Positions 843 to 19,560 of a stretch of 64,000 nt of DNA are shown here, in pieces. The notes below the pieces were generated by a model, which was given only the letters and a program-made list of their open reading frames with translations, was not told the origin of the DNA and ran no database searches. Each line of letters opens with the position of its first letter. Position 1 is the stretch's first letter. The position numbers and the translations under genes are program-made. This DNA comes from Deltaproteobacteria bacterium. Lineage in GTDB: Bacteria; Myxococcota_A; UBA9160; JAJDAL01. The stretch is taken from the NCBI GenBank assembly GCA_029261875.1, contig JAJDAL010000054.1, positions 1-64,000 of the forward strand, given 5' to 3'.

Positions 843-3800
843 TCAATAGACCTCGCGAACGAACACGCGTTTGCGGCTGCCCTTGTAGATCCCGTAGGTG
901 ATCCGGGTGGTGGGCGATTCGGGGCCATTGCCGTTCCAATCGAACTTCAACCATTCGGGGTCTTCGCTGCACCCGATCCCGACGAGGCCGTCCAGGGGGT
1001 AGGTCTGCGGAAAGGTGAACTGGTTCCCTGCGCCCGGACGCGCGTAGCGAAGCATCGCCTCTCCACCGTTGAGGGTTTCGATCTCCCGGATCTCCGTGGT
1101 GCTGTCGCGCACCACTGTGAGCTCGGCATCGCTCCGGTCTCCCGGAGGATGCCCACCGATCGATTCGAACTTCGGAAGGCCGCGATTCGTCAAGAACAGC
1201 TGGCCAATCGCGTCGCCGCGAAAGTCAACGTCGTCGCCAGCGGTGACTTGGGCGGCTTCGAGTCCGAGACACGAACACGCCGTACCCCCAACCCCCTCGT
1301 CGACGTTCGTCACCCAGGCTCCGCCCCCGATATCGGCGAAATATTCCAATCGTATGGGGACATCCAACAGACCGGATTCGGCTTCCGAGCCGTAGGCGTT
1401 CGGGATGTTCAAGCGACCCCAGCGGAATTGAGGACTTGCGACGTTGACGCTGCCGCCGAGCAGATGGGGAGGGGGGGACGTGATGTCCGGACGGACTGTC
1501 GTGTAGAAATCCCACAGATCCGGCTCTTCGAGGTCCATCGTCAGCGTCAGGGTATGGGGCACATCGTTGAAGTCATAGTTGACGTTCAAGTCTAGCGTCG
1601 CGGCACCCGACGGTGCGCTGGAGAAATCGAGACTGTTCAAGAAGCCGGAAATCGTGGGTTCGAGCGTCTGACCTTGGTAGGAGACTCCCGAGAGGTTGCG
1701 AATTCGGAACCCGTTGTGGTCCGCCAGGTCCGAATCATCCACGTCGAGCTTTGCCCATCCGTCGACGTTGACGTAGTTCTGTGTGATTCCACCGCTCGCG
1801 TTGATGGCTTGGAGATGTACCTGCCCTTTCAGCGGTTGACCCGCGTAGGTGAAGGAACGGTTCACGTCGAAGATGCCGTCCGAAGGTTCGCTGGTGTCGA
1901 TGTAGCGCTCGCAACCGGGTCTCAAGAAGGAATCAGAGTCGGTGACGCCCGTTGCGAGAGCGAGGCCTTGCGTCACATTGGCGATCGCGAACTGGTAGGG
2001 GATGAAGCGCCCCAGGTTCACGCTCGGGAAGCTTCGCGCTCCGATGTCGCTTGCGAGGTAGCCATCCAGGTCGACCGGGTTGCCGGGAGTGTCCTGGGTT
2101 CCGTCACCGTCCCAATCCCATTGTGCGTCGGCGACGTTGGCCCGGACGCCGATGATTCCGACTTCCGGGTACGTGAAGGTCGCCTTGGCGACGCCGTCCC
2201 GGTTTCCGTCCTTGAAGTTGAAGACGACGGAGAGGTTGGGGTCGGGGATCTCTACGATCTCGGGATCGTTCACTCCGCTATGAGACGGTGCCAGGATCTC
2301 CGCATGCAGGCGCACATCTTCGGGCTTGCAGACCGGCGGATCTTCGCTGCTCTGGCACTCGTAGCCGAAGCTCTGCGCCACCTTTCCACCCGGTGCACCC
2401 GTCATGGCGGTAACGGTCACCTCGAAACTTTCGCCGGCCCGGGCGAAGATCGGATTCGCGACGCCATCGTTGGGGTCGACGACGGGGGCTGACGCGCCCG
2501 CGGTCCCCGAATCCAGAATCTGCGAGAACTCGACCTTGAAGTGGTCCGGCGCGACGACGAACGTGCCTTCCCCGAACGGACCGAACTGCATTCCCTCCAC
2601 GGGATTGACCGAACCCAGGTCACAGTTCGCAGTCCACGGAGCGTGCACTTCGCTGTTCATGTAGATCGTTTCCTCTTCGTCCCGCATATCGACGAGACAA
2701 AGCGAAATCTTGCCGACGTCGTCGTAGCGAAGCGGACCGAAAGTCGCGACGCCGTCGACGAACTCGAGCGTGAGGTTGGTATTCGCGATATCCGCCAGGA
2801 GTCCCAAGTAGCCCCCTCCGAGGGGGATCGATAGCGGCGCCCGCGCATTGAGTTCGTTGCCGCCGTAGATGATCAGCTCTTCACCGTCCACGGGGTCGAC
2901 CTGCTTCATCCAGGCGTGGAGCGTCTTGGTTCCGGTGTAGGTTTCGATGACGCCGCATTCTCCGCCGTCCTGCATTCCGTAGGCGGTGATCTTGGGCGTG
3001 AAGTGCACGCCGGCGAATTTGGGCGTCATGCCGGTTGCGGTCGGGTTGTTGTCGGTCAACAGCAAGCCATAGGGGAAGAACGAGATCGTGACGTCGTCGT
3101 TGTCCGCGATCCAGCGCCGACCGACCTGTTCGATGTCGATGTCGAGATGCTTGCTCGGGTGCTTGAACGTCAGGTCGAATTCCGCGACGCCGTCGTTCCC
3201 GGCTTGCCATTGGAAAAAGATCGGTCCGGTTTCCGTTCGCGTGGAATCCGCGAGTTCGTTTCCGAAGATGTCCGTGAATTTTCCAGCACCGACGATCTCG
3301 AGCTCGAATTGATCCGTGATCAGAGTCCCGTCCTTCTCGCGCAGGATGAGTTCCGTGACTTCGCCCTTGTCGCCGAACTGCGGGTGGAGTTCGTGCTGGG
3401 AGTTCCGTGTGTTGACCGAAATCCGCTTGGGGTGGCACGCGGTTCCGTAAGTCGACGGGTAGTTGAAGGAGAACCCCTCCATGTAGGCCTGGCCGTGAAC
3501 GGCCTTCAGGTCCACGTGGGAATCCGTGGCAAAGGCGACGCGCTCGTCTACGATCTTTCGGGCTTTTCCGGCCGGCAGGCCGTCGATGGTGTTCGCCGTT
3601 GCATTGTATTCGATCACATCCCCGTCGCGGAAATAGCGCCGACCCAGGGAAAGGAGTCCGTTACCGCCGGAGCTGCTGCTCGTCGTGGAAAGGAGGTAGA
3701 GTCCGTTGGGGAGCAGCGCGAACGCGTCGATGTCCTCGTCGCGCCGAAACACCTGGTTGGCTCCTTCGAAACCGGCAGACCAGAACAACCGCGCGGCACC

Positions 3801-5441
3801 GGGTGCGAGTCCGTCGCGGGTCGTCGACGAACCGTTCCATTCGACGATGTCGTGGTCATCCCAGCCGACGTATCCCGACGCGAATCCTTTGTCCGTGTTC
3901 ATGTTCTGAACGGTCGAGATCAGCAGACTCAACTCTTGTCCGGTGGCGAGGTCACGGGACACGCTGATGGCGTCGATGTCGACAGAAGTGCTGTTGGTGT
4001 ACACGTTCTCGTCGAGCAGCTTGACAGCGGTACCCGGAGCGATGGGGTCGCCCCAGAGACTCGTGGTCACGGGTCCCAGCGCCGCGGATCCCGCAGGGGC
4101 GTTGGGATTCAAAACGTGCGGATTGTACTCGAAGACTTCTCGCGGACGTAGTTTGATGTGAGGAAACTTGGGGTCGTCCTTGGCTCCCGCATAGGTGACG
4201 AAGCTGGGTCCGGTCGTGAAGGTTCCGATCAGGTTTCCGTTGTCGCGGATGTGAATGCCGTGGAGATCGCAGTTCTGTTCACCGACGCAGATCGGCTCCG
4301 AAGTGCCGAGGACCTGTCCGGGGATGAGGGGAAACGTGACGACGCCGTCGTAGGGCGCGTCCGGGTCGTAGCGGTAGCTGTACACGTGTCCCGGCCGCAT
4401 GCTCCAGACTCCCGCGACCGTATCCGTGTTGTTTCCCGAAACCACGAGATCCCGATTCGAGACGAAGGTATCCGACGACGCGAGCAGTTCCTGGATTTGA
4501 GATTCGTTGAGCTGAAAGTTGAACAGTGCGAGTTCGTCGACGCCACCGCAATAGGGAAACGTGAACACGTTGTTGTCGAGGGGCATCTGCTGTCCGACCG
4601 GGCTGAATTTCTGGCTGGCGCCGATGACCATCGGGTCCGGGTTGTTGGTCAGGTCGAGCAGGACATCCGAATTCTCATCGACGAGTTCGCCCTCGACGTA
4701 GAGACGAACACCGCGGTTGGCCCCGGAGCTCTTCCACGTGACCGTGACGTGGTACCAGTCCTGGTGATTCGTTCCGCCGTAGGGCGGTTGCTGGAGGCGA
4801 ACGAAGACGGGATTGCCCGAAGAGTCGACGGCCTCGATGTCGGCGCGTATCCCCGTCGTGACGGGATTGCCCGAGATCTCGATGCTGTGCTCGTCGATCA
4901 GGGCGGGACTCACGTGGTCGCGCGAGAAGAAGACACCGTCGGCCTTGTGGAGGTCCGTGGGCATCACGAACATCGAGATGGTCCCCTCGGGCGTATTGAA
5001 CGCCGTGGGAATGGGGGGCAGGGGGTCCGGCGCGTTGTTGGTCGTCCAGCCGGGAACCCACGCAAAGCCGGGTTTGTCGAAGGCGACGCCCGGATCGTTT
5101 TCCTTGCAGTTGCCGCGGAACCACACCGCCTGGTCGCCGTCCTCGGTGGCGGACTCTTCGAACCCTTCCCTGTAACCGTTTTTGACCTTGCCGCGGCGCT
5201 CGTAGGAGCCCGTGTAGTTGCCGAACTCGTCGTAGAAGGCCACGCGGTTGGGTCCGGGCGGATCGTCGAAGCGCCAATAGCCCACCGGGCCCAGCGAGGT
5301 CACGGCGTCGCTGTAGGCGGCCTGGGACACGTCACCCGCAAGACCCAGGCTGAAAGCCACGAGGATTGCGAGCCAATTGCCGGTCCGAGAAGTCGATGAG
5401 GAAGAGAGCCAAGTCGAGTGGAAGGGCCGGGGGGAGGCCAT
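843..5441 (-). CDS. Giant secreted LamG-DUF6701 protein (MshQ-like), fourth gene of the array in transcription order
   Basis: A surface protein of about 1,532 residues, probably exported and adhesive. The signal peptide is around residues 20-40 (hydrophobic LAILVAFSLGLAG, then VSQAAYSDAV). A LamG-like lectin fold follows (about 50-300, with WYHVTVTWKSSG, RLYVEGEL, MVIGASQ and CGGVDELALF). Next is a middle module with DNGN and RDEDIDAFALLPNG motifs, a Cys-containing Ig-like stretch, and a C-terminal DUF6701-like region (GRFIPYQFAIAN, FTYAGQPLKGQV, NIPNAYGSE, ending YGIYKGSRKRVFVREVY). DUF6701 is known from MshQ of the MSHA pilus; its biochemical role is unknown. I chose ATG 5441 because GGAG lies 10 nt upstream and the signal peptide fits; an ATG at 5486 is possible. 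I found no c-di-GMP aptamer in this leader. It is the most divergent of the four paralogues. Confidence 0.85.
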   Translation of the reverse strand: MASPRPFHSTWLSSSSTSRTGNWLAILVAFSLGLAGDVSQAAYSDAVTSLGPVGYWRFDDPPGPNRVAFYDEFGNYTGSYERRGKVKNGYREGFEESATEDGDQAVWFRGNCKENDPGVAFDKPGFAWVPGWTTNNAPDPLPPIPTAFNTPEGTISMFVMPTDLHKADGVFFSRDHVSPALIDEHSIEISGNPVTTGIRADIEAVDSSGNPVFVRLQQPPYGGTNHQDWYHVTVTWKSSGANRGVRLYVEGELVDENSDVLLDLTNNPDPMVIGASQKFSPVGQQMPLDNNVFTFPYCGGVDELALFNFQLNESQIQELLASSDTFVSNRDLVVSGNNTDTVAGVWSMRPGHVYSYRYDPDAPYDGVVTFPLIPGQVLGTSEPICVGEQNCDLHGIHIRDNGNLIGTFTTGPSFVTYAGAKDDPKFPHIKLRPREVFEYNPHVLNPNAPAGSAALGPVTTSLWGDPIAPGTAVKLLDENVYTNSTSVDIDAISVSRDLATGQELSLLISTVQNMNTDKGFASGYVGWDDHDIVEWNGSSTTRDGLAPGAARLFWSAGFEGANQVFRRDEDIDAFALLPNGLYLLSTTSSSSGGNGLLSLGRRYFRDGDVIEYNATANTIDGLPAGKARKIVDERVAFATDSHVDLKAVHGQAYMEGFSFNYPSTYGTACHPKRISVNTRNSQHELHPQFGDKGEVTELILREKDGTLITDQFELEIVGAGKFTDIFGNELADSTRTETGPIFFQWQAGNDGVAEFDLTFKHPSKHLDIDIEQVGRRWIADNDDVTISFFPYGLLLTDNNPTATGMTPKFAGVHFTPKITAYGMQDGGECGVIETYTGTKTLHAWMKQVDPVDGEELIIYGGNELNARAPLSIPLGGGYLGLLADIANTNLTLEFVDGVATFGPLRYDDVGKISLCLVDMRDEEETIYMNSEVHAPWTANCDLGSVNPVEGMQFGPFGEGTFVVAPDHFKVEFSQILDSGTAGASAPVVDPNDGVANPIFARAGESFEVTVTAMTGAPGGKVAQSFGYECQSSEDPPVCKPEDVRLHAEILAPSHSGVNDPEIVEIPDPNLSVVFNFKDGNRDGVAKATFTYPEVGIIGVRANVADAQWDWDGDGTQDTPGNPVDLDGYLASDIGARSFPSVNLGRFIPYQFAIANVTQGLALATGVTDSDSFLRPGCERYIDTSEPSDGIFDVNRSFTYAGQPLKGQVHLQAINASGGITQNYVNVDGWAKLDVDDSDLADHNGFRIRNLSGVSYQGQTLEPTISGFLNSLDFSSAPSGAATLDLNVNYDFNDVPHTLTLTMDLEEPDLWDFYTTVRPDITSPPPHLLGGSVNVASPQFRWGRLNIPNAYGSEAESGLLDVPIRLEYFADIGGGAWVTNVDEGVGGTACSCLGLEAAQVTAGDDVDFRGDAIGQLFLTNRGLPKFESIGGHPPGDRSDAELTVVRDSTTEIREIETLNGGEAMLRYARPGAGNQFTFPQTYPLDGLVGIGCSEDPEWLKFDWNGNGPESPTTRITYGIYKGSRKRVFVREVY

Positions 5442-5513
5442 AAGCAGCGTACTCCGAATCCACGCCGCAAAGCCCGCCGGGGCCATTGCGGAAGAGGGGA
5501 ATTCCTAACCAGT

Positions 5514-5690: not shown

Positions 5691-8600
5691 CTAGTAGACC
5701 TCGCGAACGAACACCCGCCGCCGACTGGCCTTGTGGATCCCGAAGGTAATCTGCGCCACCGGGTTGGTGTCGATCCCAGAACCGTCCCAGTTGAACTGGA
5801 GCCAGGTGGGCGGCACACCGCACATGGTTTCGAGCTTGTAGGGCTGACGGAAGGTGCCGGGGTGATAGTCGGTACCGTCGAAGGGCGGCAGGAAACGCAA
5901 CAGGGCCTGCCCAGCGGGCGTGACCAATCCGTCATCTTCGTTCAGACCGAAGATTTCACTCACGGCCGAATGCGTTCGGGCTTCGGGGCTTTCGTTGGCG
6001 CGATCCGACTCCCGTACCGCCACGAGGTCGAGTTTGAAGGCGGCCTCGGTTCCGTTGTCTTTCGCGGCATCGATTCCCAGGCACGAGCACGAGCCATCTT
6101 CGAACCCGTTGACGACCCAGGAGCCCCCGCCGATGTCGGCGTAGTGTTCCACGAGCATCGGGACGTCGAGGGGCTCGAGCTCCGAACCGTACGCATTGGG
6201 GATCCGGAGACGTCCCCAGCGAACCAACGTGCTCCCGATGTCGGTGAAACGCGCCGGGCCATCCATCTGGTCCGCCGTGAAGGCGGAAAGTTCGTCTTCG
6301 GAAACCTGGATCTGCACGTGGCTCGTCGCCTCGAGCTGGGGATCGGCGCTATCCCATCGGAGATCGAGCTTCACGGTTGCGACACCGTGGGGAGCCGCAT
6401 CGAAGTCCTCTCCCGAAAGGAACTGGGTCGTCATCAACCCGTTGAAAGGCGCATCGTTCTCCAGGCTATTGAGGGCCGTGACTTCGCTCGCGGGATCCAA
6501 CTTCGCGAAATCGCCGAAGTAGTTCGAGGTCCGCGCCCCGTGGACGTTCTGCGCTTCGAGTCGCACTTGACCCGAGAACGGTTGCTTCCCGTAGGTGAAG
6601 GAACGAATGTCGGTGACGAGTCCGTTGCCGTCCTCTTCGACGTTGACGCAGGCGGGCTTGACGAAGGTCGCCGTCGGGCTGTTGTCGTAGTCGAAAGGCG
6701 CGGAGCCCGGGGTGTCCGCCCGGGGATTGAGGACGGCGAACTGGGCCGGGATGAATCGCCCGATGGGGCCTTGCGGGTCCACGACCGCGGCGCCTGCGCC
6801 CGTTCCGAGGTAGTCCCCGTCGCGAACGTCCACCTTGACGTTCAGGCTGCCCACCTCGCTCCAACAGAAATCGCCGGAGGCTACGGCGTCCGTTACATCG
6901 AGATCGGCGAAATCCAGGTTTCGTTCCGACGCCGGATCTGCGGAGCAGCCTTCCGAGAACAATCCGAAACTTCCGTGTTGTCCGCCGTTCGATTCGAGCG
7001 GAGAGACGACGATCGCTTCGAACAGGATGTCTTCGGGCGAGGGTGCCAGTGCGTCGTTGGTCTCGAAGCCGAAATTCGGTGTCGGATCGTCATCCGCATC
7101 GAGAGCGGTGACTTCGACGCGAAGCGAACTCCCGGCGCGCTCGAATACGGGACCCGCAGTGGCATCGGTGCCTTTGGGATTGGTGTCGGGAGCGGAGCCC
7201 GTGAGGTGGATCGTGTCGATCGCCACATCGAAGTGATGCGGGCGCACGACGAAGAGGTGGTCGCCGTAGGGGCCGTGATCGGTTCCCGGGGAAGGCGAAT
7301 CGCTGCCCCACTCGAAGCCGGGGTCGCGCAGGGATTGACCGGTTTCTTCGTCCTGGTCGTCGTAGACGTAGAAGCGGACCTGGCCCACGTCCTTGTACTT
7401 GAGGCCTCGGATGGTGGCTTGACCTGCGGTGAAGGCGACCGGATGTGCGACGGTGGTCTGACCGGCCGCCAGCATGGCGGTGATGTCCGCGGCCTGCATG
7501 GCGGGAACCGGTGAGAGCATGCCGGTGAAGGTCATCTCGCGGCTTCCGATGCTCGGGTCTTCGTACGCCATCCACATGTTGAGATTCTTGGTGCCCACGT
7601 AATCTTCGATTACGCCGCACTCGCCGGTTTCGCCCAGGCCGAAAGCGGTGAGGTTCAGGTCGAAGGGGCTACCCGCGGTGGCGAAGTTGCCCGTCGTACC
7701 CTCGGGGAAGACCGTGTCGACCAGCTCCGTGCGGAAGCCGCGCGGGTAGAAGCGGATGTCCGTGCTCTGACCCTCGATGGTCGGGTTGCCTTCGTCGTAG
7801 ACCACGACGCGCACGTCGTCGTCGCCGCGCTTGTATTCCATCTTGACGGTCGCCATGGCTTCGCCCTGCCAGCGGTAGCGGGCGCGCCCGTCTTCGAGGT
7901 CCTCGAAGCACGGTTCGTCCACGCCATTGATGGGGCAAACGCCGTCGGGTCCGTGCCAGACGATTTTTTTGGGGCCCGTGTATCCGTTGGGATAGACGGC
8001 TTCGATGATGGTGCTTCCACCGTAGGGGGTGAAGCCGTCGCCGTTGCTCAGGAGGGGCTGGATCTCCAGGTCCTCGGGAAAGCAGTTGACGCCGATCTGG
8101 TTGTGCCGGATCGAGAAGGTCTCGTGGTACGGCGGGATCGAGAGGGCGCGGATGTTCTCGACGCGGTTGAACGCGACGCGCTCGCTCAGGATCTTGCGGG
8201 CTTCCTGGGGACCCAATCCGAATACGGTCTTCGTCGGACTCGGATTGAATTCGATCACTTCACCGCGGCCGAAGTAGCGGCGACCGAGCACCGAGGAGGA
8301 AGAAGCCGACGTCATCGACATGGCGACGTTTCCGTTGTGGAACACGTGGAAGGCATCGATGTCTTCGTTGCGCCGCGCAAAGCCGCCGGATTGCTCGCCG
8401 TTGAAGAAGATCCGGGCGTCGCCCTGGGGGAGCGTAACGCTGGTTCCGTCGTAGTCGTTGAAAGTCAGGTCGCTTCCGGTGTTGTTCCACTCGACGATCT
8501 GCGCATCGTCGAAGGGTAGAGCGTTGCTTCCGAACGTCTTGCCGTTCTGCGCGATCGAAAGCAGCAGCGTCCCGCGCTTCGGGTGGACCGAAAGCGCATC

Positions 8601-9950
8601 CGGCGGGAAGCCGACGCCGTTGGGCCAGTCCGAGCGCGTCAGAACCTTGGCCGCGTGCCCGGGCGCGATCGGGTCGCCCCAGATCGATGTCGTGGGCGTC
8701 GAGTTCGGGTTGTATTCGACGATTTCCTGCTTCTCGACGCGCAGCGGTCCGGCGCCGATGTCTTCGCGATCGCGGAACGTCAGGAGAACGTTTCCGTTGT
8801 CGTCGCGGATGTGCGATCCCATGATCTTGCATTGGTCCGCGCAGGGAATGCCGCGTCCGCGGGAACCGGGAATGGCACCCGGGTAGGCACCGGACAGTTG
8901 CGGCGTCTGCTGGTCGTAGTCGACGAGGTCGCCGGGAAAGAACTGGATACCGGCCGCGACTCCGGAATTGTTGACCGTAAGCGCGATGTGACGCCGGGGT
9001 TGAGAGGACGTCATGGTGATGAGCAGGTCGTCGATGTCCGTCGGAGCCAGGGTGTCGCCGAAGAACACGAAATCGTCGAGTCCACCGCAGAAGCCGTCTT
9101 CGTGGAGTTCCGAGCCGGGGTTCGCCTGCTTGCCCGAGGGGCTGTTGCGCTGGCTCGCACCGATCACCATGGGTTCTCCGTTGGCCGCCAGGCTGAAACG
9201 GGCATCCTTCACGAAGTCGACTTCGTCGCCGTCGATGTAGAGCCACATGCCTTTGCGTGCGCCGCTCGCGCGCCAGGCGAAGACGACGTGGTAGAAGGCG
9301 TTGCGGTCCGTCAGGAAGAACGGGTCGGCGTCGTTCTCGGTTTCGCTTTCGTCGTCGTCGAGATTGGACTTGTTGTTCGTGGAGCGCAGGCTCTCGATGT
9401 CGCCGTTGGGCATCTCCATGTCCACGCGCAGCTCACCGGTCGAGGGAACCAGGCTGATTTCGAAGCTCCCCATGCCGTTCGGGTGTCCGCTGGCGTCTTT
9501 GGAGACGATCGTGCGGTTGCGGCCGGCGGGGCCCGCCACCACGTTCCCGCGCTTGACGAAGAAGCTGAGCGAGCCGTTGTCCTGTTCGAAACCCGCGGCG
9601 TGCGGGACTTCGATCACGCCCGGGGCATCGCCCGTGGGGTCGCCGTTGTTGCGGCAATTGTCCATCTCGATCGAGAAATTGGTGCGGTCACTCGGATCCG
9701 CTCCCGGGTTCTGGAATTTGAAACGCCCTTCTTTGATGTAGTACCCGACCTGGCCCTGGATCGGCTCCGCGGCGTTCGGATGCGCGAACTGGGATTCCGA
9801 CAGCTGCCAGTAGTACAGGGCATCGGCGTGGGCCGAGATGCCCTGGTCGTAGGACGCGCGGGCCGCGGGTGCGAGCAGCAGGGCACCGAGCGCGGCGACC
9901 GTCGTCGCAACCTTGTAGGGGGAGTTCTGGGCGTATGTGGAATTTTTCAC
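5691..9950 (-). CDS. Giant secreted LamG-DUF6701 protein (MshQ-like), third gene of the array
   Basis: A 1,419-residue exported protein of the same family as its neighbours. The N-terminus MKNSTYAQ is followed by a hydrophobic segment and an Ala-rich cleavage site (LAPAARASYDQ). The LamG-like module spans about residues 40-310 (SFFVKRGN, FYHVVFAWRASGARKG, MVIGASQRNSP, CGGLDDFVFF). The middle module has the repeat-type motifs GSHIRDDNGN and RNEDIDAFHVFHNGN, ending GRGEVIEFNP. The C-terminus has the DUF6701 hallmarks GRFIPAQFAVLN, SFTYGKQPFSGQV, RIPNAYGSELE and FGIHKASRRRVFVREVY. The start is GTG 9950 with GAGGAG seven bases upstream. The leader contains no c-di-GMP aptamer that I can see, but has a 7-bp stem GTGCCGA/TCGGCAC. 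Downstream is a strong terminator, so it is probably its own transcription unit. Confidence 0.87.
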   Translation of the reverse strand: MKNSTYAQNSPYKVATTVAALGALLLAPAARASYDQGISAHADALYYWQLSESQFAHPNAAEPIQGQVGYYIKEGRFKFQNPGADPSDRTNFSIEMDNCRNNGDPTGDAPGVIEVPHAAGFEQDNGSLSFFVKRGNVVAGPAGRNRTIVSKDASGHPNGMGSFEISLVPSTGELRVDMEMPNGDIESLRSTNNKSNLDDDESETENDADPFFLTDRNAFYHVVFAWRASGARKGMWLYIDGDEVDFVKDARFSLAANGEPMVIGASQRNSPSGKQANPGSELHEDGFCGGLDDFVFFGDTLAPTDIDDLLITMTSSQPRRHIALTVNNSGVAAGIQFFPGDLVDYDQQTPQLSGAYPGAIPGSRGRGIPCADQCKIMGSHIRDDNGNVLLTFRDREDIGAGPLRVEKQEIVEYNPNSTPTTSIWGDPIAPGHAAKVLTRSDWPNGVGFPPDALSVHPKRGTLLLSIAQNGKTFGSNALPFDDAQIVEWNNTGSDLTFNDYDGTSVTLPQGDARIFFNGEQSGGFARRNEDIDAFHVFHNGNVAMSMTSASSSSVLGRRYFGRGEVIEFNPSPTKTVFGLGPQEARKILSERVAFNRVENIRALSIPPYHETFSIRHNQIGVNCFPEDLEIQPLLSNGDGFTPYGGSTIIEAVYPNGYTGPKKIVWHGPDGVCPINGVDEPCFEDLEDGRARYRWQGEAMATVKMEYKRGDDDVRVVVYDEGNPTIEGQSTDIRFYPRGFRTELVDTVFPEGTTGNFATAGSPFDLNLTAFGLGETGECGVIEDYVGTKNLNMWMAYEDPSIGSREMTFTGMLSPVPAMQAADITAMLAAGQTTVAHPVAFTAGQATIRGLKYKDVGQVRFYVYDDQDEETGQSLRDPGFEWGSDSPSPGTDHGPYGDHLFVVRPHHFDVAIDTIHLTGSAPDTNPKGTDATAGPVFERAGSSLRVEVTALDADDDPTPNFGFETNDALAPSPEDILFEAIVVSPLESNGGQHGSFGLFSEGCSADPASERNLDFADLDVTDAVASGDFCWSEVGSLNVKVDVRDGDYLGTGAGAAVVDPQGPIGRFIPAQFAVLNPRADTPGSAPFDYDNSPTATFVKPACVNVEEDGNGLVTDIRSFTYGKQPFSGQVRLEAQNVHGARTSNYFGDFAKLDPASEVTALNSLENDAPFNGLMTTQFLSGEDFDAAPHGVATVKLDLRWDSADPQLEATSHVQIQVSEDELSAFTADQMDGPARFTDIGSTLVRWGRLRIPNAYGSELEPLDVPMLVEHYADIGGGSWVVNGFEDGSCSCLGIDAAKDNGTEAAFKLDLVAVRESDRANESPEARTHSAVSEIFGLNEDDGLVTPAGQALLRFLPPFDGTDYHPGTFRQPYKLETMCGVPPTWLQFNWDGSGIDTNPVAQITFGIHKASRRRVFVREVY

Positions 9951-10170: not shown

Positions 10171-10203
10171 ATCGGCCCCGAGCAAGCGTCGCTCGGGGCC
10201 GAT
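10171..10203 (-). terminator. Perfect 13-bp hairpin after the 10232-14722 gene
   Basis: ATCGGCCCCGAGC and its exact reverse complement are separated by a 7-nt loop, 28 bp past the stop codon of the second DUF6701 gene. On the minus strand it is followed by CTGTTTGTG rather than a clean T run. It is therefore probably a terminator or 3'-end-stabilising hairpin of imperfect type. Confidence 0.7.
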
Positions 10204-10231: not shown

Positions 10232-13200
10232 CTAATACACTTCGCGCGTGAAGACCTGCTTCTGGCTGTGCTTGTGGATGCCGAAGGTGACTTTTCCATC
10301 GACGACCTCGTCGGGCTCGTCGAGCCAGGGGACCATGGTGGTGTCGAATTCGACCACCACATCGCCACCGTTCTCTTCTCCGGGAGCCGCGAGGACTGCG
10401 CCGGGTTCGCCGACTGTGTCCACCAGGCGTCCGCCTAAGAATCGCGGCAAGGGATTAACCTCCGGATCGTCCACGATGCCGGGCGTGTGCTGACTGGCCG
10501 CGCTGTCGGGCTGGATATCCTTCAATTTGAAGTAGGTTCCGACCACGTTGGTTCCCGTATCCGGATCCGGGTCGAGTGCCTCTTGGGTACACGCATCGTC
10601 CGAAGCCACGACCCAGGCCTCTTGTCCCCCGCCCAGGTCGACCTTGTGTTCGATCTGGACCGGAACCCGCACGTCTTTGAGCTCGGAACCATAGGCGTTG
10701 ACGACTCGAATCCGTCCATTGCGAATCTCGGTGGTTTCGAAATCGAAATGCGTGTCCGGGTCGATGTCGTGGTCCACTAGGATTGCACCGTCCGGTTCCG
10801 AGAAACTGGACTCGTCCAACTGGAGGGTGACGTCGGTCTTAGGCCCATAGAATTCGGCGATCGACGCGCCGAATTGGACCACTCTCTCGCCGAACCCCCA
10901 CCCGGACGAACTCTGGACACTGTCGACCTCGAGGTAGGCGTCTTCGAGGATCGCATCCGCCTCGACGACGGGATTGATTCGGTAGTCGATCGAAGCCGGG
11001 TCCCAGGTGTCTTCGGAGAGGTTGGCCGAGTGGTAGTTGACGGCCTTCGATCCATCTCCGCGCAGCGCGCGCATTTTCACGAAGGCCAGCTTGAAGGGTT
11101 GGTCCGCATAGGTGAATCCGTCGCTGGGATCGCCGCACGCGGGAACGACGCCCGTCGGGTAGTCGTCCGCGATTTCGAATGCAGCGGGCGAGAACCGCAA
11201 AGGATCCGACACCGGAACCGTTTGGGACACGAATCCCGAATCCAGGTACCCACCGATCGTGTTTCCACTGGCGATCGCCGCCGCTGCGTTGTTGACGTCG
11301 GCTTTGATTTCGATCGTCCCCACCGCGTCCCAGGCCACGGTGCCGGTCGCGACCCCGTTGGCGAAGACGAATTCCGTGCAATCCCCACAGCCATCCGCGG
11401 GGTCCGCGGTCAGCAGGTCGGGTTCGTGGCGGTCGTCGAAAGGAAGCGGGGACAGCATGTCGTAGCTCAGCTCGACCGTTTGGGGTGTGGCTTCGTGACC
11501 GAAGTTCAGAGTCGTATTGCCCTTGGAGTTCTTCGCCGTCACGGTGACGTCGAAGGTCTCTCCCGCGTAGGCGAACCAGTTCTGGGTCGAGCCGCCGGCC
11601 CCGCCCGTGGACGGGTTTCGGATCGGACTGGAACCGACTTCGAAGTGGTCGGGCGCGAAGACGACGGATTCGCCGATCATGCCGAGTGCGCCTGTTCCCA
11701 GGAAGCTGTCCGATCCGGTGATGCCGAGGGGAAGCCCCTCGTTCCAATCGAGCAGCAGCAAGTGCAGCTCGCCGACTTCGTCGAATGCGAAGTTGTCGAG
11801 TGTGGCGACTCCCTGATCGAATTCGATTTCCGGGAAAGTGACCGCAGACGATATCGCGAGGGACGATCCTCCGTTCTCGAAGGTGATCGGCGGTCGCACG
11901 GGATACGTGGCCTCCGTGCCCGGGTACCAGAGAGCCGCGAGCGTGTTGGGACCATCGTAGGATTCGATGATCGCGCAGTTCGCACCGGGCTCCTCGGACC
12001 CGTAGGCGGTCAGGTACATCGTGTTGTCGGTGCCCGACACCATGGGGGCTCGCTCCATGACGGGATTCGCCGGGTCGAGGGGCTCGTTGGTGAAGGTGAA
12101 GGAGTACGGATACAGGGTCATCGGTTGGCCGATGCCATTGAGCGTGTTGTCCCCCAATTCCTGGACTTTGGGGAGAACCTTGTGACCCCAGAGGCCCTCT
12201 GAGGAGGAGCCGATCTCCTGACGGAAGGTGAAATCGACGGATCCCTGATCGTCGGGATGGAAGGTGTAGGTTCCGAACAAGGCGCCGTAGACGGTTCCCA
12301 TGGCCACTTGATTGTGTCCGTTCGTCGTCGACCACTCAGCGAGGTGCGATCCCTCGGTGCCCTGCGCGGAGAACAGAATAATCGTGCCGCTGTACCCTAC
12401 GAGGACGTTGTCCGCCGTATTGACCGCGGTCACGGTGACCTTGTTGTCGGCGCAGTGGAGGCCGGTGCGGCTGTTCTGAACCAAGAAGTGCGAGAGCGTG
12501 CTCGAGTACTCATCGATCGTAATGGCGGCGATGTTCTCGCTGTTCTTGAACATCGCCTCTTCGTTCCAGACCTTGCGGGCCTGGTAGGCGCCGAGCGCGT
12601 CGACGGCGTGGTCGTGGGGATTGAATTCGATGATGTCTCCGTTTTCGAAGTACTTTCCGCCGATTTCCTGGGCGCTCGAAGCCGTGGTGGTGGACATGAT
12701 GAGATTGCCGTTGGGCCGAACGTGGAAGGCGTTGATGTTCTCGTCTTTTCTGAATTTTTCTTTCTCGAGATCGCCGGAATCCCCCGCGAAGAACAGGCGA
12801 GCACCACCCGGTTTGAGTTCGTAGGCGGGGGTTCCGTCGCCGGGGTAACCGAAGGAGGACGGGTCTAGATCGTCGTCATCATCGGTCTGGATTGGGAAGT
12901 TCGCGGTCTTGCGCGCTTCCCACTCCGGAATGACGACGGCGTGCGCGTTTCCGTTGTACTCGACGACGTCGCCATCGCCGAAGTTGTCAACCCAGTCGAG
13001 GGTGCCCCCGCTCGGGGGACCGGTGAAATTGATCGCATTCTGGCCCGCACAATGGATGCGGCCGAGTTTGTTGTTGCTGGACTCGACGGAGAGCAGCAAG
13101 GTATTGCGCTCCGGGTGGACCGAGACGGCGTTGATGTTGATTCCCTGACCTTCCCAAACGCATTCGTCCAGTAGCTTTCGCGTCGTACCCGGCTGGATCA

Positions 13201-14722
13201 TCGTTCCTGGCGGGCCCCACATGGCTTCGAGGGGGACAATGGTGGGATTGAACTCGCCGATCTCGTGGTTCCGGACGCGGGGCTGGGAGGCGGCGTCCGG
13301 GTTCGTTCCGAAGTGTTCTCCGGAATGGTAGGTCAGCAGGATGTTTCCATTTTTCCGGACGTGCGCGCCCTTGATCCGGCACGCGCCGTTGCAAATGCCG
13401 TTTCCGCTCTCGGGGTCGGGCCACGCCGGGTGATGGGTGATGTGGCCGCCTTCGTTGACCGGGTCCGTGGGCGGATCGAAATGCATGAGGATGGCGGCTT
13501 TCCAGCTCAGGTCCGCGGGCGTCGACGTCACTTCGGGCGGCTCAGGGCCGGGATTCGGCTGGGCCGCACCGTTCGTTGCGAACCAACCGGGGTACGTCTT
13601 TTGACCGCCGATGCACTTCATCTTGCGATCGAACTCGGTCACCGTCGGAAGCCAATTTTGGATCGCGACCTCGTCGAGCGATCCGCACATCTGCGTCTGG
13701 GAAATCATGTTGTCGAATTTCCCGATCGGGCTCGCCTGGCGACTGCTCGCGAAGATCATGGGCATGGTGTTGTTCGCGAGGGTGAAGCGCGTGTTGTCGG
13801 GTCCGAAAGCGTGGTTCTGGTTGTCCACGCGCTCGATGAGATCGCTGTTGTTCGTGCTTTCGACGAAGAGCTGTAGGTTGGGTGCGGTCGGCTGCCAGGA
13901 GAAGGCCACGAACGTCCATTCTTCGCGGGGGATTCGATCGGATTGGAGTTGGGCTTCGTGGACCGGCCCCGGAATTCCAAATTCGTCGACGTGGTAGAAA
14001 TTGACCTGAATCACCGGATCGCGGTCGGCGATCTGGTCCGGCGCGAGTTGGATGGGATCGTTGCTTGGATCTTCCGTGTAGCGATAATTCAGAATGATCT
14101 CGAAGCCGAACTCGTTCGAACCCAGGGGAATTCCGTGGGATCCGGCGTAACCCGCGGCCATCTCGTTCTCGTTGTAGCGGGATATGATCGTACCGTTGAG
14201 GGGCTGATCGTTCTGTCGATTGATGTTGACGAACTCATCGGGCTTGATGAAGAAACTGATCGTGCCCCGGTCGAGCTGCGTCGCCGGGTTCGCGAGATTG
14301 TAGAGAAGCGGGTTGGTCGCGTAGGGGGTGGGGTCGTAAATTCGAACATGGGCGACGGGTTCGTTGTTCTGAACCCCGCAATCCTCGCCGAGGTTGAAGC
14401 CCTTCGCGAAGTTGCCGTCGTGGGTGCGTCCCGGATGCTGGAAGTCGACCTGGCCCTCTCGCCAGTACTCGCCATCGGTGGTCCCAATCTGGTCGCTCAC
14501 GCCGCCGACGCCCGCCAGGTTGACGTTCTCGCCCATGCGCCAATATGCGACCGTGTCGTCGTCGATGGCGTCCGGCGTGTTGACACCCATGCACTCTTCG
14601 TAGGTCGCCGCAGCGGGGCGCGGCGCCAGGGCGGCGATCCAGAGGATGGCCAGCAGGAAACCGATGGTTTCGGTGCGGGTGAGGGTGAATCGAAGCGCGC
14701 ACTCGCGGGGATTGCTTCGCAT
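10232..14722 (-). CDS. Giant secreted LamG-DUF6701 protein (MshQ-like) under a c-di-GMP riboswitch, second gene of the array
   Basis: A 1,496-residue exported protein. The signal peptide is IGFLLAILWIAALAPRPAAA followed by TYEEC. The LamG-like module (about 40-370) has ISFFIKPDEF, EEWTFVAFSWQ and MIFASSRQASPIG. The middle module repeats an HVRxNGN...EFNP pattern at least twice (HVRKNGNILLTYHSG; FRKDENINAFHVRPNGN ending GDIIEFNP), which looks like propeller blades. The DUF6701-like C-terminus has CAIIESYDG, GFTYADQPFKLAF, RVVNAYGSELKDV and FGIHKHSQKQVFTREVY. It is a close paralogue of the 15085-19422 gene, including signal peptide and leader. ATG 14722 is preceded by AAAGGAG with a 10-nt spacer, at the 3' edge of the riboswitch. 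A longer reading frame to 14983 runs through the aptamer and is rejected. Confidence 0.87.
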   Translation of the reverse strand: MRSNPRECALRFTLTRTETIGFLLAILWIAALAPRPAAATYEECMGVNTPDAIDDDTVAYWRMGENVNLAGVGGVSDQIGTTDGEYWREGQVDFQHPGRTHDGNFAKGFNLGEDCGVQNNEPVAHVRIYDPTPYATNPLLYNLANPATQLDRGTISFFIKPDEFVNINRQNDQPLNGTIISRYNENEMAAGYAGSHGIPLGSNEFGFEIILNYRYTEDPSNDPIQLAPDQIADRDPVIQVNFYHVDEFGIPGPVHEAQLQSDRIPREEWTFVAFSWQPTAPNLQLFVESTNNSDLIERVDNQNHAFGPDNTRFTLANNTMPMIFASSRQASPIGKFDNMISQTQMCGSLDEVAIQNWLPTVTEFDRKMKCIGGQKTYPGWFATNGAAQPNPGPEPPEVTSTPADLSWKAAILMHFDPPTDPVNEGGHITHHPAWPDPESGNGICNGACRIKGAHVRKNGNILLTYHSGEHFGTNPDAASQPRVRNHEIGEFNPTIVPLEAMWGPPGTMIQPGTTRKLLDECVWEGQGININAVSVHPERNTLLLSVESSNNKLGRIHCAGQNAINFTGPPSGGTLDWVDNFGDGDVVEYNGNAHAVVIPEWEARKTANFPIQTDDDDDLDPSSFGYPGDGTPAYELKPGGARLFFAGDSGDLEKEKFRKDENINAFHVRPNGNLIMSTTTASSAQEIGGKYFENGDIIEFNPHDHAVDALGAYQARKVWNEEAMFKNSENIAAITIDEYSSTLSHFLVQNSRTGLHCADNKVTVTAVNTADNVLVGYSGTIILFSAQGTEGSHLAEWSTTNGHNQVAMGTVYGALFGTYTFHPDDQGSVDFTFRQEIGSSSEGLWGHKVLPKVQELGDNTLNGIGQPMTLYPYSFTFTNEPLDPANPVMERAPMVSGTDNTMYLTAYGSEEPGANCAIIESYDGPNTLAALWYPGTEATYPVRPPITFENGGSSLAISSAVTFPEIEFDQGVATLDNFAFDEVGELHLLLLDWNEGLPLGITGSDSFLGTGALGMIGESVVFAPDHFEVGSSPIRNPSTGGAGGSTQNWFAYAGETFDVTVTAKNSKGNTTLNFGHEATPQTVELSYDMLSPLPFDDRHEPDLLTADPADGCGDCTEFVFANGVATGTVAWDAVGTIEIKADVNNAAAAIASGNTIGGYLDSGFVSQTVPVSDPLRFSPAAFEIADDYPTGVVPACGDPSDGFTYADQPFKLAFVKMRALRGDGSKAVNYHSANLSEDTWDPASIDYRINPVVEADAILEDAYLEVDSVQSSSGWGFGERVVQFGASIAEFYGPKTDVTLQLDESSFSEPDGAILVDHDIDPDTHFDFETTEIRNGRIRVVNAYGSELKDVRVPVQIEHKVDLGGGQEAWVVASDDACTQEALDPDPDTGTNVVGTYFKLKDIQPDSAASQHTPGIVDDPEVNPLPRFLGGRLVDTVGEPGAVLAAPGEENGGDVVVEFDTTMVPWLDEPDEVVDGKVTFGIHKHSQKQVFTREVY

Positions 14723-14736
14723 GTCTAACAAGCTCC

Positions 14737-14830
14737 TTTCGCCAACCGTTCGACCCGTTCGGCCATCGCCGAGTGAGGGCACTGGCTTTGCGCCACCGCC
14801 TTTCGACGGCTTTGCCTCTTCGCGGAGCCG
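14737..14830 (-). promoter_or_regulatory. Class I cyclic-di-GMP riboswitch (GEMM-I) controlling the 10232-14722 gene
   Basis: Minus-strand RNA shows the GEMM-I core: GAGGCAAAGCC, a P1b stem closed by a GAAA tetraloop (CCGTC-GAAA-GGCGG), then GGCGCAAAGCCAGTGCCC, a variable hairpin, and GGGTCGAACGGTTGGCG. The base equivalent to Vc2 G20 is G, which favours c-di-GMP over cGAMP. The conserved C near the 3' end is present. The aptamer runs straight into AAAGGAG (14733-14739). A CTCC on its 5' flank (14824-14827) could pair with that GGAG, so control is probably at translation. A small hairpin CGGCAC-GGT-GTGCCG (plus strand, 14829-14843) sits just 5' of the aptamer. Confidence 0.88.
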
Positions 14831-14880
14831 GCACGGTGTGCCGCTCTTGCGGGACCCGACGTAGGCAATCGCCCACATGA

Positions 14881-15084: not shown

Positions 15085-18000
15085 TCAGTAAACCTCGCGA
15101 ATGAAGACGCGCTTCCGGCTGGCTTTGTGAATGCCGAAGGTGGCCTTGCTCGGCTCGGGCGGCGGTTGGAGATGGACGGGAGCGTTGTCGAAGGTGATCC
15201 CCAGGCTTCCCTGCAGATCATCGGATGCGGGGGCTCCGAGCACAGCCGTTGTTTCTCCCCCGACGAAGGACGGCAGCTCCGTCCACGCCGTTGCGTTTCG
15301 GAGGTCTTCGTCCTCGGAAGTGTAGGGTGCGAGCCCACCCTCCAAGAAGTGCGCAATCATGTCTTCGGGGTCCGAACTCCCGGTGGCCGCGACGGCGGCC
15401 GCTGCGAGTACGTCTTGGGTGCACGACACATCGGCTTCGTTGCGCACCCAGGCTACGTTTCCGTTGAAGTCGGTCTTGTATTCGATCCGAATGGGCACCT
15501 CGAGGTCTTCCAGTTCGGACCCATACGCGTTGGGAATGTGGATTCGTCCGACGCGGATTTCCGTGTCGCCCACGGGAACGGCAACCCCGCCCTGAAGCAC
15601 CGCACCATCCGCATCGAGGGAGATCGCGTCCAATTGGACGGTGACGGTCTTTGCGGGGCCGTCATATTCCGAAGTGAGGTTGATACCGACCTTCCCGGTC
15701 CCGTTTTCCCATTGGGCCGTATGCCAGAAAACGTTTGTCTCATCATCGTCGAGGGTGTCGGACTCATCCACCGACTGCTGGTCGACCAGGCCGAGGTTGA
15801 GCGATGCCGGAGACGCGGCATCCCATTCGTGGGTGATCCACTGGCTGTGGTAGTTCTGTGCAAGGGTGTCGTTCGCCGTACGCGCCTGCAACGTCACCTC
15901 CGCGTCGAAACCTTGATTCGCGTACGTGAAGTGCGATCCATCGGTGCATGTGGTGTTGGCGGGCGTAACGTTCGTTGCCTCTGCCGCTGTATCGACGGAA
16001 AAGTACGCTGGAGAGAATCGATAGGACTTGCCAAAGGTCGTTTTGTCGACGGCGACCAGGTTCTTGTCGAGGTAGCCCGTCGTCAAGTGATTGTTCACGT
16101 CCGCGTTGATCTGAATGGTTCCGACGGCGTCCCAGGACACGGCCGCGGTCGCGACCCCCCCGCTGAACACGAAATCCGAGCAGCCCGCGCAATCGGTTTG
16201 GAGGGTTGGTTTGTTGACCGCCAGCTCGGGATCGGGTTCGGTCATCGTGTAGAGCAGATCGATCGTTTGCGGCGTGAGTTCATGGCCGAAGTTCTTCGTG
16301 GTTGCGTCTTTTGCGTTCTTCGCCGTGACGGTGAAATTGAACGGTTCGCCCGCGTAGGCGACCCAATCGGTGTCTTCGAGTACCGTGCCTTCGCCCAGAC
16401 CCGCGAGCGGTTCTCGTGCGCCACCGCTGATTTCGAAGTGGTGGGGTCCGAAGGTGAGCTGCTGCCCCCAGAGTCCGAGGACGCCGAAGGGTTGATCCGA
16501 ACCGGCGATCGATCCCGGCTCGATATCGAGCAAATACAAATTTACCGTCCCGACTTCGTCGTACTGAAGGTTGTCGAGTACGGCCCGGCCATTCGTGAAT
16601 TCGATTTCTGGGAAGGAACCGCCGTTGATCGTCACCGTGTTCTCGCCATTCTCGAAGGTAAGGGGAACGCGGTTCGGATCGATGTTGGCCGCATCGGGAG
16701 ACACGGGGATCCAAAAGGACGCCAACGACTTGGTGCCCGTGTAGCTCTCGACCACCGCGCATGCTTCGCTGGGGTTTTCGCTCCCGTAGGCGGTCAGGTG
16801 CAGTGTGTTTGGCATCCCGGCGATCATGGCGTCGGTCGTCAGCTCCAGCTCTGGATCGGTCTCGTCCACGGCTTCGTTGGTCAGGGTCAGGGCGACAGGG
16901 TAGAGGGTGATCTCTTGCCCCGTTCCGTTGAGCGTTGCGTCTCCCATCTGCTGCACATAGGGGACAATTTTTCGGCCCGCGTAGGTCTCGCCGGAATGGC
17001 CGAATTCTTGGCGGAATGTGAACTCGACGGATCCCTGGTCTTCGGGTGCGAAGGTGTAGGTGGCAAACAAGGCTCCATACACGGTGCCCATGTTGACCGG
17101 GTTGGCGCCATCGGTGGTCGACCAGGTGGCGAGGTGCGAGCCCTCCCCCGCGTAACCCGAAAACAGAATGATGGTTCCCGTGTAGCCCGCGAGCACGTTT
17201 CCCGCGGTATTGGTCGCGATCACCGTCACCTTGTTGTCCGCGCAATGCAGTCCGGTGGGTTCGTTGATGACCGTGAAACGATCCAGGGTGACGTCGAATT
17301 CGTCCAGCGAGATGGCACCGATGTTCTCGTCGTTCTTGAACATTGCCTCTTCGTTCCAGATCTTGCGGGCCTGGTAGCCACCGAGCCCGTCCACGAGGTA
17401 GGGATGGGGGTTGAATTCGAGAATGTCGCCCCGCTCGAAATACTTGCCGCCGATCTCCTGGCCACTGGCGGCCGAGGTGGTGGACATGACGATGTTTCCA
17501 TTGGGGCGCACGTGGATCGCGTTGACGTTCTCATCCTTGCGGAATTTCTCTTGATCGAATTCTCCCGAATCACCGGCGAAGAAAAGCCGCATTCCCCCGG
17601 GCAGAAGTTCGGGGCCCGGAGTCGCGTCGTCGTCATCATCCGCCTTTGAAATCGTTACGAAGTAGTCCGACGTTCGGGCTTCCCAGGCCGGAATGGGGAC
17701 CGCAGTGGCGTGGCCGTTGTACTCGATGGCGTCGCCATCCCCGACATTGAAGATGTAATCGCCCGTCACGCCGCTGGCCGGTAGATCGGGATTGATGGCC
17801 TGCTGACCGGCACAGTGCCCGTAGCCGGCGCTGCCCAGTTGCGCTTCCGTGGAGACGATCAGCGTGTCGCGGTCCGGATGAACCGATATGGCGTTGATGT
17901 TGAGCTGCTGCCCGCCCCAGACACAGAGGTCGAGAATTTTTACCGTCTTTCCGGGCTCGATCGTCTGATGCCCCCAGAGATCCGTGGTGGCGTCGGGGCC

Positions 18001-19422
18001 GGGATTGAATTCTCCGACCTCGTGATTCTTGATGAACGGCTGGCTAACGGCGTCCGGGTTGGTTCCGAATCGTTCGCCCGAGTGATACGTGAGCAGGATG
18101 TTCCCGTTCTCGCGAACGTGAACTCCCTTGATGCGACAGGCACCGTTGCAAATCCCGGTTCCACTTTCCGGGTCCGGCCAGGCATCGTGATGGTCGATGT
18201 GTCCCCCCTCGACGTTCGGGTCATCGGGTGGGTGGAAGCGCATCAGCGCCGCGGCTCTCCAGGTGATCGGCGACGGACTCGTGGTGACCGCCGGCGGCGA
18301 CGGTCCGGGATTGGCCTGGGCCGCGCCATTGGTGGAGAACCAACCCGGGAAAGCCTTGGTTCCCCCGATGCACTTGAGTCGGATGTCCCACTGGGTTTCC
18401 GTCGGAACCCACTTCATGACGGCGATCTCGTCGAGGCTGGCACACAGCTGACGGTCTTTGTCGAGGTTGTCGAATTGGCCGAGAAGACTGACCTTGCGAC
18501 TCGTGCCGAACACCATGGGCATGGTGTTGTCGATCAGGCTGAAGGGACGGCCCGAGTCGGGGTGCGTGTAATTCTCGGAATCGACCTCGTAGACGACGTG
18601 GCCGTCGGCTTCTCCTTCGACGAAAAGCGAGAGATCGCCGTTCGCCTTCCAGGAAAACGCGACGAACGACCACTCTTCTCGCGGGATCGGGTCCGGCGAG
18701 CGAAGGGTGACGACATTGTTGAGCTGGATCGGGCCGAACTCCGAGGTAATGGAGTAGATCTTGATTTCGATGTGGGGATCGTCGGTCGTGGTGTCGTTGT
18801 AGTCGAGTACGATTTCGAAGCCAAACTCGTTCCGGCCATGGTTGGGCGCGATCCCGGTGTAGCCCGCGTACATTTCCAAGATGTTGTAACGCGAGACGAT
18901 GACGCCATCCATCCCGATCCCGCTGTCTTTTTCCGGTTCGTGATTCAAGGTGTCGGGTTTGACGAAGAAACTCAGGGTGCCCGTACCGAGCTGAGTGGCG
19001 CTGTTTTCGAAGTGATATTGGTGCGGACCGGTTGCATATTCGTCCGGGTCGTAGACGAAGAACGACGCCGGTGCGTCGTTGCGGCCGCAATTGTCACCGA
19101 GGTTGAAGCCCTTCGAGAAGGAGCCGTCGTGGGTGCGGCCGGGGTTGTCGAACACGATCTGGCCTTCGTGTTTGAATGCGCCGTCGGAGGTGCCGACCTG
19201 ATCCGAAACACCGCCGATGCCCGGCAGGTTGACGTTCTCACCCAGGCGCCAATAGGCGACGGTTTCCTGACCCGGTGTGTCGACCGCGATGCATTGGTCG
19301 TAGGTCGCCGCGGCCGGGCGCGGTGCGAGGGCGACGATCCAAAGAATCGCGAGCAGAAGCCCGATCGCGATCGATTCCCGTGTCGGGATGCGGAGGGTGT
19401 TTTCTTTGGAACTACGTCCCAT
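15085..19422 (-). CDS. Giant secreted LamG-DUF6701 protein (MshQ-like) under a c-di-GMP riboswitch, first gene of the array
   Basis: A 1,445-residue exported protein. The signal peptide is IAIGLLLAILWIVALAPRPA followed by AATYDQC. The LamG-like module covers about 40-340 (LSFFVKPDTL, EEWSFVAFSWKANG, MVFGTSRKVSLLGQF, CASLDEIAVM). The middle module repeats HVRENGNILLTYHSG and FRKDENVNAIHVRPNGN, ending ERGDILEFNP. A Cys-containing Ig-like stretch (LHCADNKVTVIA) and a DUF6701-like end follow (CAVVESYTGTK, HIPNAYGSELEDL, FGIHKASRKRVFIREVY). It is the closest paralogue of the next gene downstream, and the shared leader suggests duplication of the whole unit. ATG 19422 has AAAGGAG eight bases upstream; a TTG 21 bases further up would lie inside the riboswitch. 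Confidence 0.87.
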   Translation of the reverse strand: MGRSSKENTLRIPTRESIAIGLLLAILWIVALAPRPAAATYDQCIAVDTPGQETVAYWRLGENVNLPGIGGVSDQVGTSDGAFKHEGQIVFDNPGRTHDGSFSKGFNLGDNCGRNDAPASFFVYDPDEYATGPHQYHFENSATQLGTGTLSFFVKPDTLNHEPEKDSGIGMDGVIVSRYNILEMYAGYTGIAPNHGRNEFGFEIVLDYNDTTTDDPHIEIKIYSITSEFGPIQLNNVVTLRSPDPIPREEWSFVAFSWKANGDLSLFVEGEADGHVVYEVDSENYTHPDSGRPFSLIDNTMPMVFGTSRKVSLLGQFDNLDKDRQLCASLDEIAVMKWVPTETQWDIRLKCIGGTKAFPGWFSTNGAAQANPGPSPPAVTTSPSPITWRAAALMRFHPPDDPNVEGGHIDHHDAWPDPESGTGICNGACRIKGVHVRENGNILLTYHSGERFGTNPDAVSQPFIKNHEVGEFNPGPDATTDLWGHQTIEPGKTVKILDLCVWGGQQLNINAISVHPDRDTLIVSTEAQLGSAGYGHCAGQQAINPDLPASGVTGDYIFNVGDGDAIEYNGHATAVPIPAWEARTSDYFVTISKADDDDDATPGPELLPGGMRLFFAGDSGEFDQEKFRKDENVNAIHVRPNGNIVMSTTSAASGQEIGGKYFERGDILEFNPHPYLVDGLGGYQARKIWNEEAMFKNDENIGAISLDEFDVTLDRFTVINEPTGLHCADNKVTVIATNTAGNVLAGYTGTIILFSGYAGEGSHLATWSTTDGANPVNMGTVYGALFATYTFAPEDQGSVEFTFRQEFGHSGETYAGRKIVPYVQQMGDATLNGTGQEITLYPVALTLTNEAVDETDPELELTTDAMIAGMPNTLHLTAYGSENPSEACAVVESYTGTKSLASFWIPVSPDAANIDPNRVPLTFENGENTVTINGGSFPEIEFTNGRAVLDNLQYDEVGTVNLYLLDIEPGSIAGSDQPFGVLGLWGQQLTFGPHHFEISGGAREPLAGLGEGTVLEDTDWVAYAGEPFNFTVTAKNAKDATTKNFGHELTPQTIDLLYTMTEPDPELAVNKPTLQTDCAGCSDFVFSGGVATAAVSWDAVGTIQINADVNNHLTTGYLDKNLVAVDKTTFGKSYRFSPAYFSVDTAAEATNVTPANTTCTDGSHFTYANQGFDAEVTLQARTANDTLAQNYHSQWITHEWDAASPASLNLGLVDQQSVDESDTLDDDETNVFWHTAQWENGTGKVGINLTSEYDGPAKTVTVQLDAISLDADGAVLQGGVAVPVGDTEIRVGRIHIPNAYGSELEDLEVPIRIEYKTDFNGNVAWVRNEADVSCTQDVLAAAAVAATGSSDPEDMIAHFLEGGLAPYTSEDEDLRNATAWTELPSFVGGETTAVLGAPASDDLQGSLGITFDNAPVHLQPPPEPSKATFGIHKASRKRVFIREVY

Positions 19423-19434
19423 CGCGGGGACTCC

Positions 19435-19530
19435 TTTCGACAACCGTTCGACCCTCTCGGCACGCGCCGAGGTCGGGCACTGGCTTTGCGCGACCGCCTT
19501 TCGGCGGCTTTGCCTGTTCGCGGAGCCGGC
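19435..19530 (-). promoter_or_regulatory. Class I cyclic-di-GMP riboswitch (GEMM-I) controlling the 15085-19422 gene
   Basis: The minus-strand core reads ACAGGCAAAGCC, then GCCGCC-GAAA-GGCGG (P1b with GAAA tetraloop), then CGCGCAAAGCCAGTGCCC, a stable hairpin CTCGGC-GCGT-GCCGAG, then GGGTCGAACGGTTGTCG. It aligns element by element with the aptamer at 14737-14830, with base changes on both sides of P1 (CGA:TCG here, CGC:GCG there). The G20-equivalent base is G. The aptamer abuts AAAGGAG (19431-19437), and an upstream CTCC (19522-19525) could mask it. Translational control is inferred. Confidence 0.9.
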
Positions 19531-19560
19531 GTCGTGACGCTGCTCGAATTCACGATCCCA

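Follow-up and report, generated by a model that had tools for sequence, protein, structure and literature searches.

Among the described c-di-GMP-I (GEMM-I) riboswitches the Vc2 RNA of Vibrio cholerae acts as a translational OFF switch, with P1, the helix closing the aptamer, as its key element (PMC9262584). P1 is an unstable helix in GEMM-I RNAs, and in the pilM RNA it was seen only in the presence of the ligand (PMC9262584), while the ligand contacts established for Vc2 are G20, A47 and C92 (PMC4744006). In this article we have analysed a stretch of 64,000 nucleotides (nt) of a Deltaproteobacteria bacterium of the phylum Myxococcota_A (contig JAJDAL010000054.1, positions 1 to 64,000, hereafter the window), in which two genes for large DUF6701 proteins are each preceded by a leader, copy 1 and copy 2, with a putative riboswitch for cyclic di-GMP (c-di-GMP). 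These leaders share with Vc2 the aptamer class and the contact bases, and translational OFF control depending on the stability of P1 is proposed for them as well. They differ from it in the place of the ribosome site, which in Vc2 is distant from the aptamer, as far as the title of Inuzuka 2018 tells, whereas in the window the 3′ strand of P1 itself serves as the Shine-Dalgarno sequence (SD).

A ligand-stabilised P1 that hides the SD is known from the thiamine pyrophosphate (TPP) riboswitch of E. coli tbpA (thiBPQ), where an anti-P1 stem represents the ON state (PMC11487190); the aptamer and the ligand are other ones there, and the candidate competitor in the window, a hairpin designated here as P0, sits 5′ of the aptamer. 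In the Bc1 c-di-GMP-I riboswitch of Bacillus thuringiensis the ribosome site is likewise trapped upon c-di-GMP binding (PMC11218506), but the platform of Bc1 is long, with two terminators and a ribosome site far from the aptamer. The Geobacter GEMM-Ib riboswitches for cyclic GMP-AMP (cGAMP) have the same fold, and their cGAMP-selectivity mark, A20, is found in another leader of the genome studied here, L001 (PMC6456294); the Geobacter examples are, however, ON switches acting through terminators, in contrast to the window copies with G20 and with the SD in P1. Both the c-di-GMP-I aptamers and switching by means of a P1 that contains the SD are known already, and what appears to be new is their combination. 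No published account of a c-di-GMP-I RNA with the SD inside P1 was found in the literature search, most subscription journals lying outside its scope.

Two c-di-GMP-I aptamers in the window

The covariance search with the Rfam models returned two matches to RF01051 (c-di-GMP-I), both above the gathering score of 35 bits, and no other Rfam family reached its threshold anywhere in the window.

14738..14826, minus strand: c-di-GMP-I aptamer of copy 1, P2/P3 core, with G20 at 14816, A47 at 14789 and C92 at 14741 (RF01051, 52.9 bits)
19436..19524, minus strand: c-di-GMP-I aptamer of copy 2, with G20 at 19514 and C92 at 19439 (RF01051, 48.9 bits)

These scores confirm the c-di-GMP aptamer with an SD at its 3′ edge that had been recognized in a preliminary description of this DNA. 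The ligand bases were placed through the alignment to the Rfam model; A47 of copy 2 is the first A of CGCAAAG, thus G20, A47 and C92 are intact in both copies, and the GAAA tetraloop of P2 (CGAAAG) is also present in both. By score, contact bases and tetraloop both leaders are c-di-GMP-I aptamers and are predicted to bind c-di-GMP. Each carries G20, and not the A20 by which the cGAMP-selective GEMM-Ib RNAs are recognized.

Location of the Shine-Dalgarno sequence within P1

The two strands of the closing helix could be assigned in both leaders as follows.

14824..14829, minus strand: 5′ strand of P1 and anti-SD of copy 1, GGCUCC, with the core CUCC at 14827-14824 (sequence and phylum-wide co-variation)
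14731..14736, minus strand: 3′ strand of P1 of copy 1, GGAGCU, with the SD GGAG at 14736-14733 (sequence, start codon 10 nt downstream, co-variation)
19522..19527, minus strand: 5′ strand of P1 and anti-SD of copy 2, GGCUCC (sequence; the unconstrained fold pairs the SD at P ~0.9)
19429..19434, minus strand: 3′ strand of P1 of copy 2, GGAGUC, with the SD GGAG at 19434-19431 (sequence, folding, co-variation)

The ATG start codons are found at 14722-14720 (copy 1) and 19422-19420 (copy 2), 10 and 8 nt after GGAG, and a GAAA linker separates C92 from the SD in both leaders. The pairing of CTCC with GGAG, counted as four pairs in the preliminary description, is indeed present in both and extends to 6 base pairs (bp) in each, including one G-U pair whose position is not the same between the copies. 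When the 5′ flank was shuffled, a helix of this length appeared in this register in 0.5% of the cases for copy 1 and in 0.9% for copy 2. The two copies are paralogues and not independent of each other, and the evidential weight rests on the other genomes.

It had been supposed that P1 and the CTCC:GGAG pairing are separate elements, the latter being an extension of the former across an AAA bulge. This division did not stand. The 5′ strand described above ends 7 nt before G20, and the sister aptamers of a second family from the same order (class A) have their P1, GATTC:GAATC, with the identical 7-nt spacing; since CUCC:GGAG takes the same position as P1 of the class A aptamers, it is itself P1. 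The junction is made up of the linkers, which are 7 nt long 5′ of the core and GAAA 3′ of it, and there is no bulge between P1 and an extension. The anti-SD built into the leader is upheld as a real, conserved and co-varying pairing, and its partition into two helices is abandoned. An inner P1 of CGC:GCG was also considered and rejected: it would use up C92, and its GCG is not conserved (TCG in copy 2; GCC, ACC and others elsewhere). Position and co-variation thus place the SD within the P1 helix, while stabilisation of this helix by the ligand would be expected by comparison with the relatives.

Comparative evidence for the pairing

The first comparative set consisted of 36 thinned leaders of the window type (class B), which came from an Rfam search at the level of the order and from a pattern scan that excluded the SD. 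In-register pairing was better than with permuted partners (41 of 20000 permutations were as good), and the pairing score was about halved when the strands were slid by 1-3 nt. Co-variation was not significant in the variant-only subset of these 36 leaders (3727 of 20000), and for this reason a phylum-wide set was assembled from the RF01051 matches of a 286-genome sample of the phylum together with the order set, giving 97 usable matches in 55 clusters.

In the phylum set 48 of the 97 matches and 25 of the 55 clusters had the SD within P1 and a start codon shortly after it, the start codons of the SD-adjacent clusters standing 10-19 nt after C92. The own P1 partners clearly surpassed the swapped ones, with z=5.2 for the SD-adjacent clusters and z=9.5 for all clusters (0 of 5000 permutations in each), where shared ancestry is lessened by the clustering and not wholly removed by the permutations. 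When the register was fixed, four of four pairs were formed in 27 of 37 leaders (73%) versus 35% for cross-genome swaps, and sliding cost pairs. Matched changes on the two strands were GTCTCC:GGAGAC, TCTTCT:GGAAGA, CCCC:GGGG, GCTTC:GGAGC, CCTCT:AGAGG and CTTCCA:TGGAAG.

A hairpin upstream of the aptamer

On the 5′ side of both aptamers a hairpin, P0, overlaps the anti-SD strand, of which the bases CUC belong to the 3′ arm of P0 in both copies.

14825..14846, minus strand: P0 of copy 1, GAGC-GGCAC..GUGCC-GCUC, taking three bases of the anti-SD strand, candidate competitor in the ON state (predicted fold and excess stability in relatives)
19523..19545, minus strand: P0 of copy 2, GAGC..GCUC, outer stem like that of copy 1, inner stem altered on both sides (sequence and predicted fold)

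A segment of 36 nt that stops 6 nt short of G20 was more stable than its shuffles in the clusters with the SD in P1 (mean z -1.32; Fisher 5e-7), compared with a mean z of about -0.3 for segments 35-105 nt further upstream. Several leaders (L021, L023, L046, L048 and L074) have a literal GGAG within the 5′ arm of P0. The swap test for the capture of the anti-SD strand by P0 gave a weak signal (p ~0.08). Overlapping the anti-SD strand, P0 may be a competing ON fold, or it may do no more than stack next to P1. The promoter scan found no sigma-70-like promoter, so both the transcription start and the inclusion of P0 in the transcript are assumed.

Proposed switch and its alternatives

We consider it probable that each leader is a c-di-GMP-I translational OFF riboswitch whose closing helix P1 doubles as the expression platform, the 3′ strand being the SD and the 5′ strand the built-in anti-SD. 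At low ligand concentration P1 would be unstable, the anti-SD strand would be held by P0 as the alternative fold that we infer, and the ribosome could bind. Binding of c-di-GMP in the three-way junction would stabilise P1, the SD would be occupied and the DUF6701 surface protein would be translated less. Because the ligand stabilises P1 in the GEMM-I class and P1 contains the SD, c-di-GMP should repress translation, in agreement with the shut-off suggested in the preliminary description; judged from these relatives, such repression would also be expected in the cell. Neither leader has an intrinsic-terminator-like site and the SD and the start codon come directly after the aptamer, thus the leaders are most simply read as controlling the initiation of translation.

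Some observations speak against an OFF switch of this kind. According to nearest-neighbour folding, where the energies of the bound and unbound states omit the ligand and the tertiary contacts, P1 of copy 2 is predicted to form already in the absence of the ligand, and the SD of copy 1 prefers pairing with a CCCC inside the coding region. P1 has only 2-3 bp in 6 of 32 SD-adjacent clusters (L002, L049, L051, L133, L137, L138). Three gammaproteobacterial class B leaders (L075, L080, L094) keep CUCC:GGAG with the start codon about 72 nt after C92; GGAG is therefore not always an SD, and in these leaders the helix has another role or platform. Furthermore, the expression of adhesins is usually raised by c-di-GMP. 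The adhesin label itself is a guess for the window proteins, made from their MshQ-type DUF6701 C-terminus and signal-peptide-like N-terminus.

The behaviour of adhesins and the fold of copy 1 would be accommodated by a translational ON switch, in which the SD is trapped without ligand, in copy 1 for example by the CCCC of the coding region, and is freed when the aptamer folds. In the unconstrained fold of copy 1 the SD does pair locally with the downstream codons to form a hairpin, and the Bc2 c-di-GMP-I RNA of Bacillus thuringiensis activates an adhesin (PMC4933901). The folded aptamer would, however, itself put the SD in P1, and the trap of copy 1 is missing in copy 2, whereas the P1/SD pairing is kept across the phylum; we regard an ON switch as improbable. 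The leaders might also not switch at all, P1 holding or releasing the SD regardless of the ligand and the overlap arising from short leaders with purine-rich SDs beside the conserved GAA after C92. CUCC and GGAG are sequences of low complexity, the 35% of swapped partners mentioned above still pair fully, and the ligand-free P1 predicted for copy 2 would fit as well, but compensating changes of the strand that is not the SD in many lineages and the intact ligand-contact bases of both copies argue against such a passive helix, which is improbable as well in our judgement.

Control at the level of the transcript would be an addition to the OFF switch and not an alternative to it: a hidden SD could expose the mRNA to Rho or RNase, and the effect would be mainly on the amount of mRNA. 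An mRNA-level effect alongside translation was reported for the TPP riboswitch of E. coli tbpA (PMC11487190), and for the window leaders we take it as conceivable, on the doubtful side.

Putatively controlled genes and their neighbourhood

The open reading frames (ORFs) behind the two leaders encode paralogous proteins, and the first is followed by a terminator-like structure.

10232..14722, minus strand: ORF under copy 1, 1496 amino acids (aa), secreted-looking, with a DUF6701 (MshQ-type) C-terminus
15085..19422, minus strand: ORF under copy 2, a paralogue of 1445 aa with a DUF6701 C-terminus
10171..10203, minus strand: strong intrinsic-terminator-like hairpin 3′ of the copy 1 gene

Because of this strong hairpin after its gene, copy 1 probably controls that one gene alone. 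DUF6701 / Laminin_G_3 genes of this orientation are found at two further places (5691-9950 and 843-5486), both without a recognizable riboswitch leader, and another terminator-like hairpin (5669-5644) follows one of them. The homologues of the DUF6701 proteins in the class were too few for an orthology test of the leaders.

Related leaders in the order and the phylum

It was recognized that 16 of the 97 matches of the phylum set, including L001 on contig C28 of the window's own genome, carry A20. In a Geobacter RNA the choice between A20 and G20 sets the selectivity for cGAMP or c-di-GMP (PMC6456294). A frame with the motif of SLT lytic transglycosylases follows 15 of the 16 A20 leaders versus 0 of 80 G20 leaders; in the remaining A20 leader, L044, the frame is interrupted by the contig end, and two of the SLT-motif frames were confirmed by Pfam SLT. 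The same genome encodes two GGDEF domains with GHLVGS replacing GHxxGD (L151 on contig C15 and L155 on contig C46), a change which we take to be the signature of Hypr enzymes, that is, cGAMP synthases.

The class A leaders (L006-L020) precede other large secreted proteins. The 3′ side of their P3, GGGACCG, can pair by eye with a downstream CGGUCCC followed by UUUU, and these leaders appear to be terminator-controlled; one cell may therefore hold both terminator-type and SD-in-P1 c-di-GMP switches. Proteins of the HDOD type stand behind four c-di-GMP-I leaders with a GCUUC:GGAGC P1 (L027, L028, L036 and L037). The protein at L027 has HDOD and a weak EAL match, and the other three look similar to it by sequence, which suggests feedback on c-di-GMP signalling at these loci.

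For the phylum as a whole a common design can be put forward tentatively, and we would sooner doubt than assert it in full: the SD would be in P1 with the platform upstream, where P0, in some leaders with a mimic of the SD, would hold the anti-SD until the ligand binds, and a change of one base would split the family into a c-di-GMP branch, serving surface proteins, pilins and HDOD proteins, and a cGAMP branch with A20, dedicated to secreted lytic transglycosylases.

Where the SD is built directly into P1, as in about half of the c-di-GMP-I RNAs of the phylum sample, the direction of control can be read off the sequence. Repression by c-di-GMP can be predicted in this way for many surface proteins, minor pilins and HDOD/EAL proteins of the phylum. 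As its genome combines the G20 branch, the A20 branch and two GGDEF proteins of the GHxxGS variant, this bacterium would offer a natural system for distinguishing c-di-GMP from cGAMP signalling.
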